IMG/VR virus record: IMGVR_UViG_3300046000_012596
Span: 1 to 47,412 of that record
Reading direction: 5' to 3' (one strand)
DNA length: 47,412 bases
From: a virus
Part shown: positions 414 through 46,818 of the stretch, piece after piece
Position numbering within the stretch: position 1 is the first letter of the stretch
Layout: each line of letters starts with the position of its first letter
Position numbers and translations under genes: made by a program
The notes under the pieces: model-generated
The model's input: only the letters and a program-made list of their open reading frames with translations
Databases searched by the model: none
What the model was told of the DNA's origin: nothing

Positions 414-1616
414 TTAATTACCTTTTAAAGGAAACCTTGTCCAAGTGTTAGTCCAACTTGGTTTTGATAATGTTTCCATTTCTTGTTTTGTATATTGTTT
501 TTCCAAATTTCCATCCCCGAGTGCTTTTGTTTTCATTTCCAAAGCGCTGAAAATTGTAGAAGTAGATTTAAAATTCAACATAGGGTCATAAGCCTGAATT
601 TCATTATTTAAAAACTTTGAAACTCCGTCCTTGTAAGATTGTGCCGTTTCATTTGACTCAATTGAAAATGAACCTTTTTGATAACCCAAAATCTTCGAGT
701 TTGAAATTGAGAATTGTGTTGCTCGTCTCCATCTCAATCCTAAATTATGATTTGAGAGTGAGGTAATATCAAAGGGTCCAATGAGAATCATATTATTAAG
801 TTTTGGATGTGTGAAAGGTTGCGCTTGTGAACCTGTACCATCATTATCACATTCAACTCCATTACCCGCGTCTCCGTTATCAACAAATAAAGGTTCTCTT
901 TTCGAAATACCGAATGAAACTTCCCCTGTGTAACCAAAGTCAAAATCGTAATCATCATCTGCCGTTGCAAATGCGTATAGATATTTTGGAGAAACAGTTC
1001 CACCAAAGAATTCGAAAGCATCATCATTTGCATAAATTGTTTGAACGTATTCGATAGTAGTTCCTTTTCCAACACCTCCCAAAGTAAGAGCATTAATTTC
1101 TGAATTAGGTAATGCCGCTATACCAGCATATTCAATTCTAACGTACTTTAGAACCCCACTGTTGTCTTCATTGTTTGTTCCACCATAAGGTCTTCCAATA
1201 CCACCTTCAATCGTTGGTTCCGAAATTCTATTAGTTTTAGCCCTGCCAAGTATAACTATACCACCCCAATCACCAGGACTTTTTTGTCCATCAGGTTGAC
1301 CTGAAGTAAAAACAATTGGTTTCGAAGGTGTACCTTCAGCGATTATCTTTGCTCCTCTTTCAATACAAAGGGCGCCTTTTTCTGCGATGTCTGATTTAAT
1401 TACAGTTCCAGGTTGGATGATAAGTGAAGCTCCTTCGGTTACGTAAACGTATCCTTTTAATGTCCAAACTTTATCAGAAGTCAAAGTTGTTGTTGCGTTA
1501 ATTGAACCTGTAATTACTGTTGATGAAGGTATATTGATAGGTCCTCCATCACCACCCAAATCCTTTGTACAACTGAATAAAGAAATTGTTAATAGTCCGA
1601 AAATTAAATTTTTCAT
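414..1616 (-). CDS. Secreted lipoprotein, right-handed beta-helix-like
   Basis: A 400-residue exported lipoprotein. The N-terminus has a lipoprotein signal peptide with lipobox LFSC, so Cys16 would be the lipidated residue. The body has short beta-strand repeats with many Gly, Asn and Asp, such as LKGYVYVTEGASLIIQPGT and GDWGGIVILGRA, typical of Bacteroidota right-handed beta-helix surface proteins. An acidic stretch (about residues 215-260: ADDDYDFDFG, DNGDAGN, CDNDGTG) could bind calcium. Its ATG overlaps the stop of the TonB-dependent receptor by four bases, so the two are translationally coupled and probably form one outer-membrane unit, as SusC/SusD-like pairs do, although this protein is not SusD-like. 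A strong terminator follows. This is bacterial-type cargo and unexpected in a phage. The ligand cannot be told from the sequence. Confidence 0.85.
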   Translation of the reverse strand: MKNLIFGLLTISLFSCTKDLGGDGGPINIPSSTVITGSINATTTLTSDKVWTLKGYVYVTEGASLIIQPGTVIKSDIAEKGALCIERGAKIIAEGTPSKPIVFTSGQPDGQKSPGDWGGIVILGRAKTNRISEPTIEGGIGRPYGGTNNEDNSGVLKYVRIEYAGIAALPNSEINALTLGGVGKGTTIEYVQTIYANDDAFEFFGGTVSPKYLYAFATADDDYDFDFGYTGEVSFGISKREPLFVDNGDAGNGVECDNDGTGSQAQPFTHPKLNNMILIGPFDITSLSNHNLGLRWRRATQFSISNSKILGYQKGSFSIESNETAQSYKDGVSKFLNNEIQAYDPMLNFKSTSTIFSALEMKTKALGDGNLEKQYTKQEMETLSKPSWTNTWTRFPLKGN

Positions 1617-3865
1617 AAATTTAGATTGAATGAAAGAGATATTGATTGTTCGTTGTTTATTTTAATCAAATCTCTATTGTTTATTTTTTGATAAAATCTA
1701 GTTGGTTGTGCTAGCAAGTCCCCAACAGATAATTTTATTTCACCTTTTTTGAATTTTGTTAAAAATACAACATCAATAAGGTCTCTTGAGTTTTCAAAAA
1801 TGTCAGGATATCCCTGAAATCCTACTGCGGATATTCTTTCTCCAATTCTATTATAAGAAATGGACAAGGAAGATTTGTTTTTATGTAAATTAACTCCTCC
1901 GTTTAGAATATAATTTGATTGACCTTGTAATTGTCTTTTGGTGTTGTCTAATTTAACAGTTGAATTTATCAGAGCTGAGTTTGTATAAAAATCTAACCAA
2001 CTCAAAACCTTTTTTCTTAATTCAACCTCAATTCCAACAACTGATGCGTTTTTGGGGTTTGTATAAGTTAACAAAAGGTTTGATGGTACCGAACCATCAG
2101 CAACAATTTGTTCGATTGGATTTGAGAAACTTTTACCAAAAACTCCAAATGAAATGTTTTCACCAACTTTAGGATAAAGTTCCCATTTTAAATCGAAATT
2201 ATATATGTCTGTTTTTTTTAGTTGAGGGTTGCCAAGAAGTTGAGCGTTTCTTACAAAATCATAGTATGCAAAATTAGCAACTTCTCTAAATTCTGGTCTT
2301 GCCAATGTTTTGGAAAAAGAAAATCTATATTTTGTTTTTTCTAAATTATAAGATAAATTAATAGATGGGAGAAAATCCAAATATTCTCTATCAACATTTA
2401 CTTGAGAACCACTGAAATCAGATGTATTAACTTGAAATGTATTATATTCAGTTCTTAAACCTCCGTTGAGTTTCCATTTATTCCATGTATCGTCATATTG
2501 AAAAAATAGATTAGAAAGTCCAAAATCGGCGTTGTACTTATCTGTGTTATTTGTGATTTCATTTAACAAATCTTCTGATTCATATCTGAATATTCTTGCC
2601 TGAAAATTTCTAAACTTCTGTAGATGTCCGCCCCCAACTTTTATTTTTCCGAAATCATTAGATAAAGAACCATTAACTTGATTCTCGTTCATAACAGACC
2701 AAAATCTATAAGTGTCTCTCCAAGCAATTGCATAATTATCATTTGTACCAAGGGACCTTGTAATTGGATTAACCCTATAATCAGGTTGGTCACGTAACAT
2801 CAAATTGTAGCCAAAATTATAATCAAAGGTTTTGATTTTTCCTTCTATTTGGGAATTAAATAATGTTTTAACGATAGCGTTTGATGAAGTACTTTTAACA
2901 TACTGCACATTGTCATAATTCTCTCCATCTCTTGTAAGATAAGTCTGTTCAACCTGATGGTTTAGAATTGATTTCCAAGAGATTTTGTTTTTACCAAGAT
3001 AAGTAACATTGAAAAGTCCGCTCAAAGATATATTATCACTAAAAAGAGTATCCTTATATCTGTAGGCCAGCTCAGAAGAACTTTGATAATCAAGTCTATC
3101 AATATAGTTTAATGAAAATGTCTTTCTTGTATTTGAACTAAATAGGTAATTCCATTTAGGTTTTTTTATACCAAATGAAATACCACCATTAAGGTTTGGA
3201 TAAGACCTGAAGTTATTATAAACCCCACCAGTCATAAGTTTTGTGTAAGCCCTTCTGTCTCCCAAACTTCCAACTCTGAAAGTGTATGTTGAAGGAAATT
3301 TGGTGGGGAAGTTCGTATAGTCCACCAATTTGAAATCTTTTAAACTCGACACAATTCCATAACTTGTACCGAGAGATAGAGACAAAAAATTACTACCAAC
3401 CTCCTTGGTGGTGACTTGAACAACTCCTCCAGCAAAATCTCCAGGTAATGACGAAACCGCAGATTTTATAACAATAACGTTATCAATAAGCGAAGAAGGT
3501 ATTATATCAAAAGAAAAAGCTCTTCTGTCTGGTTCAGTTGATGGTAATAGTGTTTTATTTAGAAAAGATAAATTGTATCTATCTGAAAGTCCTCTCACGA
3601 GAACAAATTTGTCATTTTGTATCGTTACCCCATTGACCCTCTTAAGAGCATCGCCAACAGTCCTATCAGGAGTTTTTTTTATTTGTTCTATAGAAACACC
3701 ATCAGAAACTGATGAGTTGTTCCTTACCATATTAACAACTGCAACAACAGATTCTTTCTTACCCGCACTTTTTACGGTTACTGTAGATAATGTTTTGTTG
3801 AAAAGAGTGTCTTGAGAAAATACACTCAAAGGTAGGATTAAAGGAATTAATATTTTTCTTAACAT
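1613..3865 (-). CDS. TonB-dependent outer-membrane receptor
   Basis: About 750 residues. It imports a ligand across the outer membrane using TonB energy. The chosen start gives a signal peptide (MLRKILIPLILPLSVFSQ); an in-frame ATG at 3880 is also possible, and the longer open frame upstream to 4123 runs antisense to the neighbour's region and adds nothing like a signal. The plug domain follows at once: IKKTPDRTVGDALKRVNGV, then FVLVRGLSDRYN, then GDFAGGVVQVTTKE. The rest is a beta-barrel rich in alternating aromatic strands, ending in a strand with terminal NLNL. The N-terminal carboxypeptidase-regulatory-like domain common in Bacteroidota receptors is absent. It is coupled to the downstream lipoprotein. 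No TAnnTTTG promoter is evident in the short space after the neighbouring terminator. It is odd cargo for a phage: it may aid nutrient uptake, alter phage receptors, or mark a recent acquisition from a host. Confidence 0.9.
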   Translation of the reverse strand: MLRKILIPLILPLSVFSQDTLFNKTLSTVTVKSAGKKESVVAVVNMVRNNSSVSDGVSIEQIKKTPDRTVGDALKRVNGVTIQNDKFVLVRGLSDRYNLSFLNKTLLPSTEPDRRAFSFDIIPSSLIDNVIVIKSAVSSLPGDFAGGVVQVTTKEVGSNFLSLSLGTSYGIVSSLKDFKLVDYTNFPTKFPSTYTFRVGSLGDRRAYTKLMTGGVYNNFRSYPNLNGGISFGIKKPKWNYLFSSNTRKTFSLNYIDRLDYQSSSELAYRYKDTLFSDNISLSGLFNVTYLGKNKISWKSILNHQVEQTYLTRDGENYDNVQYVKSTSSNAIVKTLFNSQIEGKIKTFDYNFGYNLMLRDQPDYRVNPITRSLGTNDNYAIAWRDTYRFWSVMNENQVNGSLSNDFGKIKVGGGHLQKFRNFQARIFRYESEDLLNEITNNTDKYNADFGLSNLFFQYDDTWNKWKLNGGLRTEYNTFQVNTSDFSGSQVNVDREYLDFLPSINLSYNLEKTKYRFSFSKTLARPEFREVANFAYYDFVRNAQLLGNPQLKKTDIYNFDLKWELYPKVGENISFGVFGKSFSNPIEQIVADGSVPSNLLLTYTNPKNASVVGIEVELRKKVLSWLDFYTNSALINSTVKLDNTKRQLQGQSNYILNGGVNLHKNKSSLSISYNRIGERISAVGFQGYPDIFENSRDLIDVVFLTKFKKGEIKLSVGDLLAQPTRFYQKINNRDLIKINNEQSISLSFNLNL

Positions 3866-3936
3866 TTTAGAAGTTTCCATAATAAGTAGAAACTCGACAA
3901 CCAACGACCTGAAAAACCGTATTACCTTTATGTTAA

Positions 3937-3964
3937 GAAAAAACCCCTCCTTGTGGGAGGGGTT
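3937..3964 (-). terminator. Rho-independent terminator
   Basis: On the minus strand AACCCCTCC-CACAA-GGAGGGGTT is a perfect nine-pair stem followed by T residues. It lies four bases past the stop codon of the gene at 3969 and separates it from the TonB-receptor operon. Confidence 0.9.
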
Positions 3965-3968
3965 GGCT

Positions 3969-4721
3969 TTAGATAGTCCCAACAATCGAAGCAGTAACAC
4001 CATCCCACTTCTTGATTTGGGATTTGGGAACCCAAAACTCCATCTCACCGATTTCCTCAACACGCTTAAGGTACTCCTCACGGAAACGCTGAGCCTGTGA
4101 TTTGTCAGTGATGTACTCAACACCTACATGACCTGCACAAATCTTACCCATTCCAGTCAACATAGAGAACTCATCAGTCAGAGTCTTCATGCAACATGTA
4201 CAAACATCACCACGTTTTACGGTCAACTTACCAATGAACTGAACCGCCTTTGGAGACACAGCTTTAAGAGCTGTGATATCAATAAGGATTGGATTGAACT
4301 TCAGACCGTACTTCTCTTTAAGTTCTACTCCTTTTTTGCGACCAAGTTTGATGGTCTCACCAACAGTTGGCCAGTTCATACGAACGGTCTTTTCTTTGTC
4401 CTCCTCCTTTTGAATCTGAGCCACAGCGGCTGAGATTTGCTTTGAGGTAAGTGTACCCCACTTTTCGAATTTGAGAGCGATGTCCTTGACAAATGAGTTC
4501 TCACCTTTGTACTCAACAATACGCTTCACGTCCTGAGGGAGGTTGTCCTTGTTGATGGTCTTAACTTCAGCATTCAAAGCCTTTTCGGCCGCTGTAAGTT
4601 GGTTTTGAGTCAGACCACCCCACTTGTTGAGAGAGTCCTTGAGGTTCATGAGAAACCGGTTTTGACCTTGGTAGTTGCGAACTTTGTCTTGGACTGAAAC
4701 AGTGGTAGTTTGGATTGTCAT
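3969..4721 (-). CDS. Cys-motif protein, putative early gene
   Basis: A 250-residue protein, function unknown. Two related segments near the N-terminus (about residues 14-50 and 75-110) each carry a phrase of the form F-x-K-WG-x-LT-x-Q, suggesting an internal repeat. The C-terminal half contains CTCCMKTLTDEFS...MGKICAGH (about residues 176-200), a C-x-C-C...C-x2-H arrangement that resembles the small zinc-binding module in DUF6011-like proteins (C-x-x-C-x-x-x-LTDP...G-x-G-x-x-C). The gene has its own host-type promoter and a strong terminator, so it is a single-gene transcription unit. Its base composition is richer in G and C than its neighbours, and it shares an untranslated-leader sequence with the gene at 7067. 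An early, highly expressed accessory protein is plausible, but that is inference. Confidence 0.8.
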   Translation of the reverse strand: MTIQTTTVSVQDKVRNYQGQNRFLMNLKDSLNKWGGLTQNQLTAAEKALNAEVKTINKDNLPQDVKRIVEYKGENSFVKDIALKFEKWGTLTSKQISAAVAQIQKEEDKEKTVRMNWPTVGETIKLGRKKGVELKEKYGLKFNPILIDITALKAVSPKAVQFIGKLTVKRGDVCTCCMKTLTDEFSMLTGMGKICAGHVGVEYITDKSQAQRFREEYLKRVEEIGEMEFWVPKSQIKKWDGVTASIVGTI

Positions 4722-6861: not shown

Positions 6862-7070
6862 TCCTTTCGGTGTTTGATAAACCATATCAAGTGAATCGTA
6901 ATGACGCACAAATTTACAACAATCGTTGGTTTTGCCAAAATTCCAAAACCATATATTAACCAAAAGATTGCGCCAATTGTGTTAACAAACCTTAAACGGA
7001 AAACGTCCTCAATTAGGAATGAACCTAATATGAGGACTGTTCCGATATATCCATATATTTCCCAACTCAT
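6840..7070 (-). CDS. Small multi-pass membrane protein
   Basis: 76 residues with three hydrophobic segments: about residues 5-21 (IYGYIGTVLILGSFLIE), 28-46 (FVNTIGAIFWLIYGFGILA) and 49-65 (TIVVNLCVITIHLIWFI), followed by a basic tail. The layout resembles small YgjV/MtN3-like half-transporter proteins, but the family is not certain. Its start overlaps the stop of the gene at 7067 by four bases, and its end overlaps the UvrC start by about 22 bases, so it belongs to the same transcript. Confidence 0.7.
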   Translation of the reverse strand: MSWEIYGYIGTVLILGSFLIEDVFRLRFVNTIGAIFWLIYGFGILAKPTIVVNLCVITIHLIWFIKHRKEWNSKKK

Positions 7071-7537
7071 TTCGCGAAGGCTTTATCTGCCCAAGTTTTA
7101 GCACCAACATATTCCCACAACTTCATGTCACACATGTCAGGGTAAGATGAACGCATGGTTCCCACGGTCATTACCTCCAAAAACCCACGGTCGATGCTGT
7201 ACCACTTACCCCCCTTGGTAGTGTAAACGTTCATCCACAACTTACTTCCGTTTTCATACTCTACCTCGACTTGAAGGTTCGCAAGGTTGTTTTTACCCCA
7301 CATACTGATTGCACCTTGTGGGGTGTCTTGAAAGTCGTGAATATTTACGAAACCCGCTTTGCACTTTGCCGCTGAACGAAACTTATAAGTCTTATTAACG
7401 TCTTTGATGTGGTTAGACACACCAACGGTGATTCTTTTACCTTTAACGGTGGTGTCAAAAGAACCGTAGAAAACATCAGAACTTAAAACTGAATCTTGAT
7501 TTAATTTAACTGCTGGGATGGTGGTGGTTGATGTCAT
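7067..7537 (-). CDS. Hypothetical protein, putative early gene
   Basis: 156 residues, no recognised family. The ATG at 7537 (MTSTTTIPAV) was chosen because the longer open frame would begin inside the promoter -7 box. The protein looks beta-rich: GSFDTTVKGKRITVGVSNHI, LQVEVEYENGSKLWMNVYTT, GGKWYSID. Conserved-looking Cys residues occur near residues 64 and 140. It has a host-type promoter and shares its 5' leader with the gene at 3969. Codon use is richer in G and C than nearby genes. It heads a transcript that continues into the membrane protein, uvrC-like and nuclease-like genes with short overlaps. Confidence 0.78.
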   Translation of the reverse strand: MTSTTTIPAVKLNQDSVLSSDVFYGSFDTTVKGKRITVGVSNHIKDVNKTYKFRSAAKCKAGFVNIHDFQDTPQGAISMWGKNNLANLQVEVEYENGSKLWMNVYTTKGGKWYSIDRGFLEVMTVGTMRSSYPDMCDMKLWEYVGAKTWADKAFAK

Positions 7538-7557
7538 ATGTTTGTGTTTTGTGAATA

Positions 7558-7590
7558 CAAATATACAACCCAATTATTTACCAACCAAAA
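7558..7590 (-). promoter_or_regulatory. Bacteroidota-type promoter
   Basis: TTTTG, then 20 bases, then TATATTTG on the minus strand, with the ATG 20 bases downstream. The 19 bases beginning at the TTTG of the -7 box are identical to those at the 4744 promoter (TTTGTATTCACAAAACACA). Confidence 0.85.
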
Positions 7591-9147: not shown

Positions 9148-9156
9148 TATTTATAA
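9148..9156 (+). promoter_or_regulatory. TATTTATnA motif (putative late promoter)
   Basis: TATTTATAA two bases upstream of the ATG at 9159. If used as a -10 box the transcript would be leaderless. Confidence 0.4.
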
Positions 9157-12358: not shown

Positions 12359-12367
12359 TATTTATCA
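12359..12367 (+). promoter_or_regulatory. TATTTATnA motif (putative late promoter)
   Basis: TATTTATCA two bases upstream of the ATG at 12370; a leaderless transcript is implied if it is a -10 box. Confidence 0.4.
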
Positions 12368-26701: not shown

Positions 26702-26710
26702 TATTTATAT
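26702..26710 (+). promoter_or_regulatory. TATTTATnA-like motif
   Basis: TATTTATAT three bases upstream of the ATG at 26714, immediately after the terminator, so the next gene needs a new promoter here. Confidence 0.42.
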
Positions 26711-44900: not shown

Positions 44901-45077
44901 TTAATCATAACAATTTTTATACGGTCTACAAGAAGCCTTTTGAGTGAAACCCATTTCCGAACAGGGTGTTGACTTACAGTAAGATTGACTATATTTTCTT
45001 TTTTTCTTAAACTTCTTCTGTTCCTTTTCGTCCAAAAATTTATAAAGGACTCTTCGTATAATTTGTTCAGAAATCAT
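44901..45077 (-). CDS. Small Cys-rich basic protein (58 aa)
   Basis: 58 residues. The first half is a basic helix (ISEQIIRRVLYKFLDEKEQ), with a possible L-D-E site at 15-17 reminiscent of the packaged leaders. The second half has YCKSTPCSEMGFTQKASCRP and KNCYD, four Cys in a tight, conserved-looking pattern that probably binds zinc or forms disulfides. Its ATG sits at one end of a 16-base palindrome shared with the divergent gene at 45088. It is missed by length-limited gene calling, but the Cys pattern and promoter support it. Confidence 0.72.
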   Translation of the reverse strand: MISEQIIRRVLYKFLDEKEQKKFKKKRKYSQSYCKSTPCSEMGFTQKASCRPYKNCYD

Positions 45078-45090
45078 ATTTATAAATATG
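45075..45090. promoter_or_regulatory. 16-base palindrome between two divergent start codons
   Basis: CATATTTATAAATATG reads the same on both strands. It contains the TATTTATAA motif in both directions and its two ends are the start codons of divergent genes (minus ATG at 45077-45075, plus ATG at 45088-45090). Only ten bases separate the two codons, so any transcript from it would be leaderless. Confidence 0.6.
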
Positions 45091-45255
45091 TCAGAAAATA
45101 CTAATAAAGGTTGTGACTCTTGTAAAAAAACACCCTACCACGGTAGTTTAAACAAAAATGAAATGTTTGGTATTGTTGCCGGTATCTACATTATTTGTAC
45201 TTCGGTATATGGAAGTATTTCGTTAGTTAAAGAAATTATGACTTATTTCAAATAG
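45088..45255 (+). CDS. Small membrane protein with N-terminal Cys pair (55 aa)
   Basis: 55 residues. Start [19 protein letters not shown] with a C-x-x-C motif, then a hydrophobic segment (about residues 27-45, [20 protein letters not shown]). A membrane-embedded or thiol-active small protein is likely. Divergent from the 58-residue gene through the palindrome; its end overlaps the DnaJ end by eight bases. Confidence 0.7.
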
Positions 45256-46171
45256 GCCTGTCAAATTTTACAAACAATTTCACGTACATATCCCCTCCTT
45301 CAAATCCCTTTCCCCTTAACCTTAATGGTTTGGATGTGTCAACTGTTTTTGGTGCGCTCATAAGTAGTTCTCCGTCAGGATGAGGTATTTTGAATTTTTC
45401 AGATTGTAAATCTTCTAAATTCAGATACAAAGAATATATAAGGTCGTTATTAATTTTTTCAAATCCTTCTTTTGCAATTAATTCAATCTGTAAAACCAAA
45501 TCACCATTCTCACCATTTCTAAAATCACCCATATTTGCAAGTTTTAGAAATTGACCATTATCACAACCTCGAGGAAGATTCACACTTACCTCATTAATAG
45601 TAGATTGAGTACCTCTACCGTCACACATGTAACATCTATGAAGGATATAACTTCCTTTTCCGTTACATGATGGACAAGCTGTTCTTACTTGTTGAACCAT
45701 AAATCCAGTTCCAAATGTTTGAATTTGGAATCCGGCACCATTACAAGTCTCACAAACTTTTCTTTCGCCACCTGAACCATGACAGACGTTACATGAGTTA
45801 TCCTTGGAGTACTGTATTGTTTTTTTAGACCCAAAATAAGATTCAATAGGGGTTACTTGTACCTTTAATATTTTATCAGGTGCCTGTTTTCTTCTTTGTC
45901 TTTGTTGATTATTAACATTCGCACCAAACATTTGAGAAAATATATCTTGAAAAGGTGTGTTTTGATATGGATTTTTCTTTTTAAAATCATACTCTGCTCT
46001 TTTTGGTCCGTCACTTAAAACCTCATACGCTTCTGCAATTTCTTTGAATTTTTCTCCTCCTTCAGGATTTAAGTCTGGATGAAATCTTTTAGAAAGTGTT
46101 CTATAACTTTTTTTTATGTCATCATCGGAAGCATTCTCTTCAACTTCCAAAATTTTATAATAATCTTTCAT
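45248..46171 (-). CDS. dnaJ: DnaJ-family co-chaperone
   Basis: 307 residues. It stimulates Hsp70 (DnaK) ATPase and delivers substrates. Residues 1-65 are a J domain with the H-P-D loop ([10 protein letters not shown]). The Gly/Phe region is short ([17 protein letters not shown]). The zinc domain has all four C-x-x-C-x-G-x-G repeats ([32 protein letters not shown]; the last ends G-R-G). The C-terminal substrate domain follows: [20 protein letters not shown] and [16 protein letters not shown]. It is shorter than cellular DnaJ (about 370 residues) through loss of parts of the linker and C-terminus. Phage DnaJ proteins can recruit host DnaK for virion assembly or replication. No phage DnaK is in the window. 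Confidence 0.95.
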
Positions 46172-46173
46172 AT

Positions 46174-46818
46174 ATGAACTACATAGTTGTGCTATTCAAG
46201 AATAAAATAAAAAAAAGATTAATAAAGAAGTTTATAACATTAACCAAAGCCAAGTCTTTTTTTGTTAAAATGAAATCAAAATCCGAGGATGTTATCTTCG
46301 AAAAAGTTTTTGAAGATGGTAAAATTGTTAGTTATGAACTTGGTATTATAGAAATGAGCTCGAAACAATTACTTCCTGTGTATATTACTGATGAAATGGG
46401 TCGTAATTTAAAAGTAAAGCTGGAGGATGATGGTATGACTTTGTTTGAAATTTGCACTTACAAGCAAGAAGAAAAGATATATGACCTACAAAAAAAGAAA
46501 AAAATAAACTCACACGAATTTATTTTAAAATATCTTAAATCTGATTCATTGAAGATGATTTTTTCACTTAATAATAAAATTATTGTTCAGAATGATAGTT
46601 TGTTTTCAATATTTACGTTGAAAAACATTGAGGAGTCTTCTAGATTTATTGATTGTCTATCATATTATTTCATAAAAATTAACAGGAAAGATTGTTTGTT
46701 TGTTAAAGATACCTCTGTCGCACAAAAAAAGTATCTTTATGAGATACTTGAAAAAAATGGTTTTAATAAAAGTATGTTATACCGAAGGTTTACTTCTCCT
46801 CCACCATCGAAAGTATGA
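46174..46818 (+). CDS. Hypothetical protein
   Basis: 214 residues from the ATG at 46174 (MNYIVVLFK), two bases after and divergent from the DnaJ start; the longer open frame to 46096 is antisense to dnaJ. Lys-rich, with beta-like stretches ([21 protein letters not shown]) and a helical second half. No recognised domain. Its end overlaps the gene at 46790 tail-to-tail by 29 bases. Confidence 0.68.

Follow-up and report, generated by a model that had tools for sequence, protein, structure and literature searches.

A 16-bp perfect palindrome, CATATTTATAAATATG, joins the start codons of two divergent small genes at positions 45075–45090 of the window (the whole 47,412 nt stretch of viral DNA analysed herein) and would, in the reading that we consider fairly likely, act as a bidirectional, mutually exclusive promoter of late type giving rise to two leaderless mRNAs. 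The element is its own reverse complement. Its first three letters, CAT (45075–45077), are the start codon of a minus-strand ORF at 44901–45077 encoding a 58-aa Cys protein, whilst its last three, ATG (45088–45090), open a plus-strand ORF at 45088–45255 for a 55-aa Cys-containing protein, with 10 bases separating the two. Coordinates and ORFs therefore confirm the earlier note, which had described a palindrome with the ATGs of two small Cys-containing proteins as its ends. Within it lie two opposed copies of TATTTAT, overlapping by 2 bp: one on the plus strand at 45077–45083, 4 nt before the ATG of the 55-aa gene at 45088, and one on the minus strand at 45082–45088, 4 nt before that of the 58-aa gene at 45077. 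By sequence, then, the palindrome holds the overlapping box in each orientation that is looked for in a bidirectional promoter. It is envisaged that RNA polymerase, equipped with a specificity factor of the phage, would bind the site in either orientation and open its AT-rich segment, with transcription beginning at the A of one or the other ATG and yielding the two leaderless mRNAs. The predicted starts, placed from the 4–5 nt gap between box and ATG, are 45088 on the plus strand and 45077 on the minus strand, and because these are only 11 bp apart the two polymerase orientations would exclude each other. A polymerase in one orientation would cover the other box, such that the 58-aa and 55-aa genes would be transcribed in alternation; that both directions fire is what we infer from this arrangement.

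The length and symmetry of the palindrome are not in themselves beyond chance, since 1.0 perfect palindromes of at least 16 bp are expected per window (order-1 Markov simulation) and one is observed. With up to two mismatches allowed, CATATTTATAAATATG has a single match in the window (0.08 expected), where TATTTAT is counted 30 times against 17.4 expected, and the T4-type motif TATAAATA nine times against 4.0. The core, TATTTATAAATA, is found in 11 copies in approximately 1 Mb, as compared to about 1.3 expected (order-2 Markov); beside every one of the 11 a gene begins at an allowed gap, and in three (L162, L178 and the window) this is so on both sides. Amongst 43 divergent gene pairs with intervals of up to 60 nt, the palindrome locus is the sole case of a leaderless-type box on both sides. 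Whilst the expected frequency of such palindromes would allow the element to be mere AT-rich sequence between two start codons, we regard this as extremely improbable, as the box is found at equal spacing before approximately 8 % of starts and, when third-base variants are included, upstream of the 58-aa gene at 35 of 36 related loci. This contradicts chance as the source of the forward box, though the reverse one, considered by itself, could have arisen by chance.

Of all heptamers, TATTTAT is the most frequent within the 30 nt preceding called starts (longest-ORF calls) in the window and in three relatives, G001, G003 and G004, with sense to antisense counts of 11/0, 73/15, 78/20 and 72/20, respectively. 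Over 1247 starts, its distance to the ATG is bimodal, with 104 sites at 4–5 nt, 17 at 6–12 nt and 108 at 13–20 nt; 20 permutations of the same letters gave means of 3.75 (maximum 15), 10.65 and 13.85 for these classes. Boxes thus lie close to the ATG, at a near-constant spacing, more often than composition would give, and the class is repeated in two held-out genomes, G002 and G008, which display 41/13/30 and 18/8/33 sites at the same three gaps. The 6–12 nt class of these genomes also exceeds its composition background (13 against a mean of 3.95 in G002, and 8 against 2.45 in G008), so that between the peaks sites are scarce, but not missing. Further examples in the window are the plus-strand boxes at 9148–9154 and 12359–12365, each 4 nt before an ATG (9159 and 12370), that at 26702–26708 and a minus-strand box at 366–372, the latter two each with a gap of 5 nt to the ATG (26714 and 360, respectively). 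At sites of the 13–20 nt peak, the sequence becomes A-rich approximately 4 nt past the box; one and two helical turns upstream of the phage TATTTAT sites there are AT-rich stretches. Single-base variants of the heptamer show no clear enrichment before starts, and neither TATAAAT nor ATAAATA peaks there. A promoter-type box does, therefore, face each way from the palindrome, as had been claimed, but the sense-strand box of this lineage is TATTTAT and not the TATAAATA of T4.

These features suggest that TATTTAT is a promoter element, and a bimodal gap is the pattern that such a box would give if it served both leaderless and short-leader mRNAs. In Flavobacterium johnsoniae, 4 or 5 nt separate the −7 element from the start site, and AT-rich sequence is found near −18 and −28 (available text of PMC6847099); the AT-rich stretches upstream of the phage sites are at comparable positions. 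Should the phage box share this offset, then the first gap peak would place starts at the A of the ATG, whilst the second would correspond to leaders of roughly 9–16 nt; the sparse 6–12 nt zone would be that of leaders too short for use. This value comes from a sigma element of a host, and T4's own offset would put the start just inside the ATG. One might instead suppose that TATTTAT acts within the mRNA, as a ribosome-binding or structural signal, for which the fixed 4–5 nt spacing to the ATG could be cited. This we find improbable: a second cluster of boxes lies at 13–20 nt and is followed by A-rich sequence, the zone between the clusters is sparse, and shuffled sequences fold as well as the RNA around the palindrome does (z 0.28). 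A hairpin at the palindrome, considered as a candidate structure, was rejected on the same measure.

A search with the 58-aa protein returned 67 loci, ten of which were set aside as the protein is there a domain of a longer ORF; the remaining 57 comprise 36 distinct upstream sequences, or 37 with the window. A box is present 4–5 nt before the 58-aa gene in 35 of the 36 (26 TATTTAT, eight TAATTAT and one TACTTAT), and the last has TATTTAT at 6 nt. This spacing is kept although the distance to the opposite ATG ranges from 10 to 17 nt (10 nt in 22 of the 37 loci, and 13–17 nt in 14). Of the 22 loci with 10 nt, 18 have a reverse TAnTTAT at 4 nt, and it is the third base of each box that varies. 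In the pooled genomes, the bases needed for it are present at only 4 of 60 sites of gap 4; as the loci are related, this contrast is not to be read as a probability. Outside of the window the reverse box is TAATTAT or TACTTAT, variants that are hardly enriched genome-wide, or is absent, as it is at 4–5 nt in all 14 loci with a 13–17 nt interval. With the reverse box degenerate or lost in this manner, the 55-aa gene may use another promoter in relatives.

Of the 37 distinct loci, the window alone has the perfect palindrome, which is also absent from eight large or partial relatives. Judged by lack of conservation, which the earlier note had itself named as grounds for refutation, the palindrome fails as a conserved element, and the operator that the note had offered as an alternative is not supported. 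A dimeric repressor silencing both genes would suit a perfect dyad centred between them, but with the dyad not kept amongst relatives, and its halves explained by promoter boxes that stand before many genes, such a role is highly improbable. Across the same loci, full symmetry is peculiar to the phage of the window, and the conserved element appears to be a directional promoter for the 58-aa gene together with a partly conserved opposing box. The claim of a promoter for the 58-aa gene is strengthened by this near-constant box, and that of a single site driving two leaderless mRNAs gains strong statistical support for its leaderless geometry from the gap distribution, whilst the importance of full symmetry gains no such support. 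The most serious competitor, which we rate as rather unlikely, is that the box serves the 58-aa gene only, that the symmetry is a one-base accident and that the 55-aa gene is expressed otherwise. The rarity of the perfect form speaks for it, as do the fixed spacing of the forward box beside a degenerate or lost reverse one and the fact that the window is a single base away from CATATTTATAATTATG or CATATTTATAAGTATG, each of which is found in four distinct loci. Against it stand the frequency of the reverse TAnTTAT in the (related) 10 nt loci and the lack of any other recognisable promoter upstream of the 55-aa gene in the window: within 120 nt upstream of either gene there is no further TATTTAT, nor any host-type TAnnTTTG. 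The two-way, leaderless promoter is the reading retained here.

Both small genes are conserved in relatives, the 58-aa gene by homology search and the 55-aa gene by position. The 58-aa protein, with a C-x4-C and a C-x5-C pair and a MGFTQKASCRPYKNCY block, is found at 67 viral loci and is conserved in alignment, has no tblastn match in 50,697 phage records, and displays a median pN/pS of 0.24, indicating that it is under purifying selection. Its Cys block also exists as a domain of longer proteins, being C-terminal in nine loci and near the N-terminus in one (L116, L117, L119–L123, L126, L127 and L135); several of those with a C-terminal block harbour a HEIQH/HELQH motif. A D12 adenine methyltransferase gene begins 36 nt after the 58-aa gene on the same strand, and the two may be co-transcribed. 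The 55-aa protein has a CxxC at its N-terminus and, after it, a hydrophobic segment in which a YG(T/S) motif lies. It has no relatives by tblastn; divergent homologues were instead found by position, opposite the 58-aa gene, such that a divergent CxxC protein, mostly with a hydrophobic stretch, is present in 36 of the 37 loci, the window included (L109 is the exception). Its median pN/pS of 0.78, with 158 of 176 pairs below 1, weakly supports selection on this protein.

With regard to the timing of expression, box-bearing genes of G004 include members of endolysin, head maturation protease, tail fibre, spanin-like and head–tail adaptor families, as well as homing endonucleases (the function scan covered genes of at least 90 aa, namely 38 of 39 in the leaderless and 27 of 29 in the leadered class, after removal of those that overlapped or were repeated). 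No TATTTAT lies upstream of the gene for the major capsid protein. The label 'late' is thereby favoured by the endolysin, head protease and tail fibre genes and opposed by that of the major capsid protein, making a late-type role for the box plausible, and perhaps likely. Separately, an N-terminal peptide resembling MKYIITESQ..L is common to many unrelated proteins, being found in 53 of 1265 called genes of G001, G003 and G004 (example tiles L150, L163 and L179), and in 15 of 104 leaderless-class genes vs 32 of 1057 without a box. T4 capsid-targeting peptides are cut after (I/L)xE; the peptide seen here is reminiscent of these, and a prohead protease is present.

The 47-kb window is probably a fragment, for which a search at the DNA level found no more than short and partial matches. 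IMG/VR contigs as long as 326 kb encode close relatives of its J-domain and 58-aa proteins. Of the nine records searched, the five largest encode a major capsid protein of T4 type (gp23) and a prohead protease, whilst neither was found in the window and three smaller records; on the basis of gp23, the relatives would be T4-type jumbo phages. G001, G003 and G004 share a sigma-like protein of 248–260 aa with weak similarity to T4 gp55 (phmmer E-value 0.006–0.022) and to phrog_234 (E-value 0.017, also weak), although a profile comparison with gp55 gave an hhalign probability of 6 %; its alignment comprises 16 of the 19 sequences first given. No tblastn match to it exists in 50,697 phage records, and none of the nine records matched phrog_12791. 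For a low-confidence structural model (pLDDT 66), the matches listed are mostly sigma factors, with a best E-value of 0.085, and gp55 (7d7c) ranks 46 amongst them. It is conceivably this protein that recognises the TATTTAT box in the relatives.

A search of genome contigs for the host produced a single match, in a Phycisphaeraceae MAG contig. TAnnTTTG occurs before phage genes 153 times in sense and 91 times in antisense orientation, with 61 sites at gaps of 12–23 nt; this sense enrichment is in keeping with a host from the Bacteroidota and with a second class of promoter, and TATTTAT looks like a phage-specific class existing beside it. A Bacteroidota host is suggested by these sites and by a possibly related lineage, the 'moraphages', in the accessible part of PMC12619734. 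The broadest reading is of a widespread, Bacteroidota-infecting T4-type jumbo lineage that switches to its own sigma factor, in which about half of TATTTAT promoters are leaderless and about half have very short, A-rich leaders, and in which the palindrome box decides which small Cys protein is made; taken as a whole, we put this forward tentatively, as possible but doubtful.

Elsewhere in the window, the J-domain gene (45248–46171, minus strand) and a gene for a 214-aa protein (46174–46818, plus strand) have ATGs just 2 bp apart. Their junction at 46169–46176, CATATATG, is also a palindrome, with the same arrangement in G001, G003 and G004, and has no TATTTAT at allowed gaps on either side. 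Two minus-strand genes, 3969–4721 and 7067–7573, share TTTGTATTCACAAAACACA upstream, in each case overlapping a host-type TAnnTTTG, and these sites are possible early promoters. A TonB-dependent receptor-like ORF (1613–4123, minus strand) contains OMP_b-brl_3 and Plug domains, has no match in PHROGs, and is either an unusual phage gene or host DNA at the contig end.

In the one open library searched, we found no description of TATTTAT as a phage promoter and, by title or start of abstract, no matching account of leaderless or bidirectional promoters in T4-like, jumbo, Flavobacterium or Bacteroidetes phages. If correct, the present reading would provide a promoter grammar for uncultured, evidently abundant large phages, from which transcription units and true start codons could be annotated by sequence. 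Leaderless expression on a large scale would also be predicted for infected cells of a phylum in which most mRNAs are leadered and Shine–Dalgarno signals are not known. The palindrome would itself be a minimal natural symmetrical promoter, with promoter, start site and start codon predicted to lie within one 16-bp unit.

Amongst known systems, the T4 late promoter (gp55/gp33/gp45) is described in the available text of PMC2988020 as an AT-rich box of 7–8 bp near the −10 position, with no conserved −35 element and AT-rich sequence downstream. The present lineage resembles it in these features of its single AT-rich box, in the T4-type capsid, prohead protease and putative sigma-like protein of relatives, and in that the box is found before genes for lysis, head and tail functions. 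It differs in the box itself, TATTTAT(A/T), which has TT in place of the AA of TATAAATA, and in its position, often 4–5 nt from the ATG; in a T4 control covering 50 kb, the 12 TATAAATA sites before 55 annotated genes all had gaps of at least 14 nt. A parallel in position comes from Deinococcus and others, where a −10 motif a few bp before the start codon is read as leaderless (accessible portions of PMC3160421 and PMC12340547), although here a phage lineage, another box and a Bacteroidota-type host with mostly leadered transcripts are involved; for F. johnsoniae, 87 % of transcripts have leaders above 10 nt (PMC6847099, as available). The Bacteroidota housekeeping promoter, with its −7 TAnnTTTG, would share the 4–5 nt box-to-start distance predicted herein, but TATTTAT is without the TTTG end. 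Finally, the bidirectional promoters of Warman, Grainger and colleagues, according to the available text of PMC10268837 and PMC12825309, have a symmetrical −10 element at which opposed polymerases exclude each other, with starts 7–25 bp apart. The palindrome is similar in being one near-palindromic box with a predicted start distance, 11 bp, inside this range; it differs in that the usual and optimal distance of such promoters is 18 bp (PMC10268837, same portion), in that both products would be leaderless coding mRNAs, and in that the factor involved would not be sigma70.
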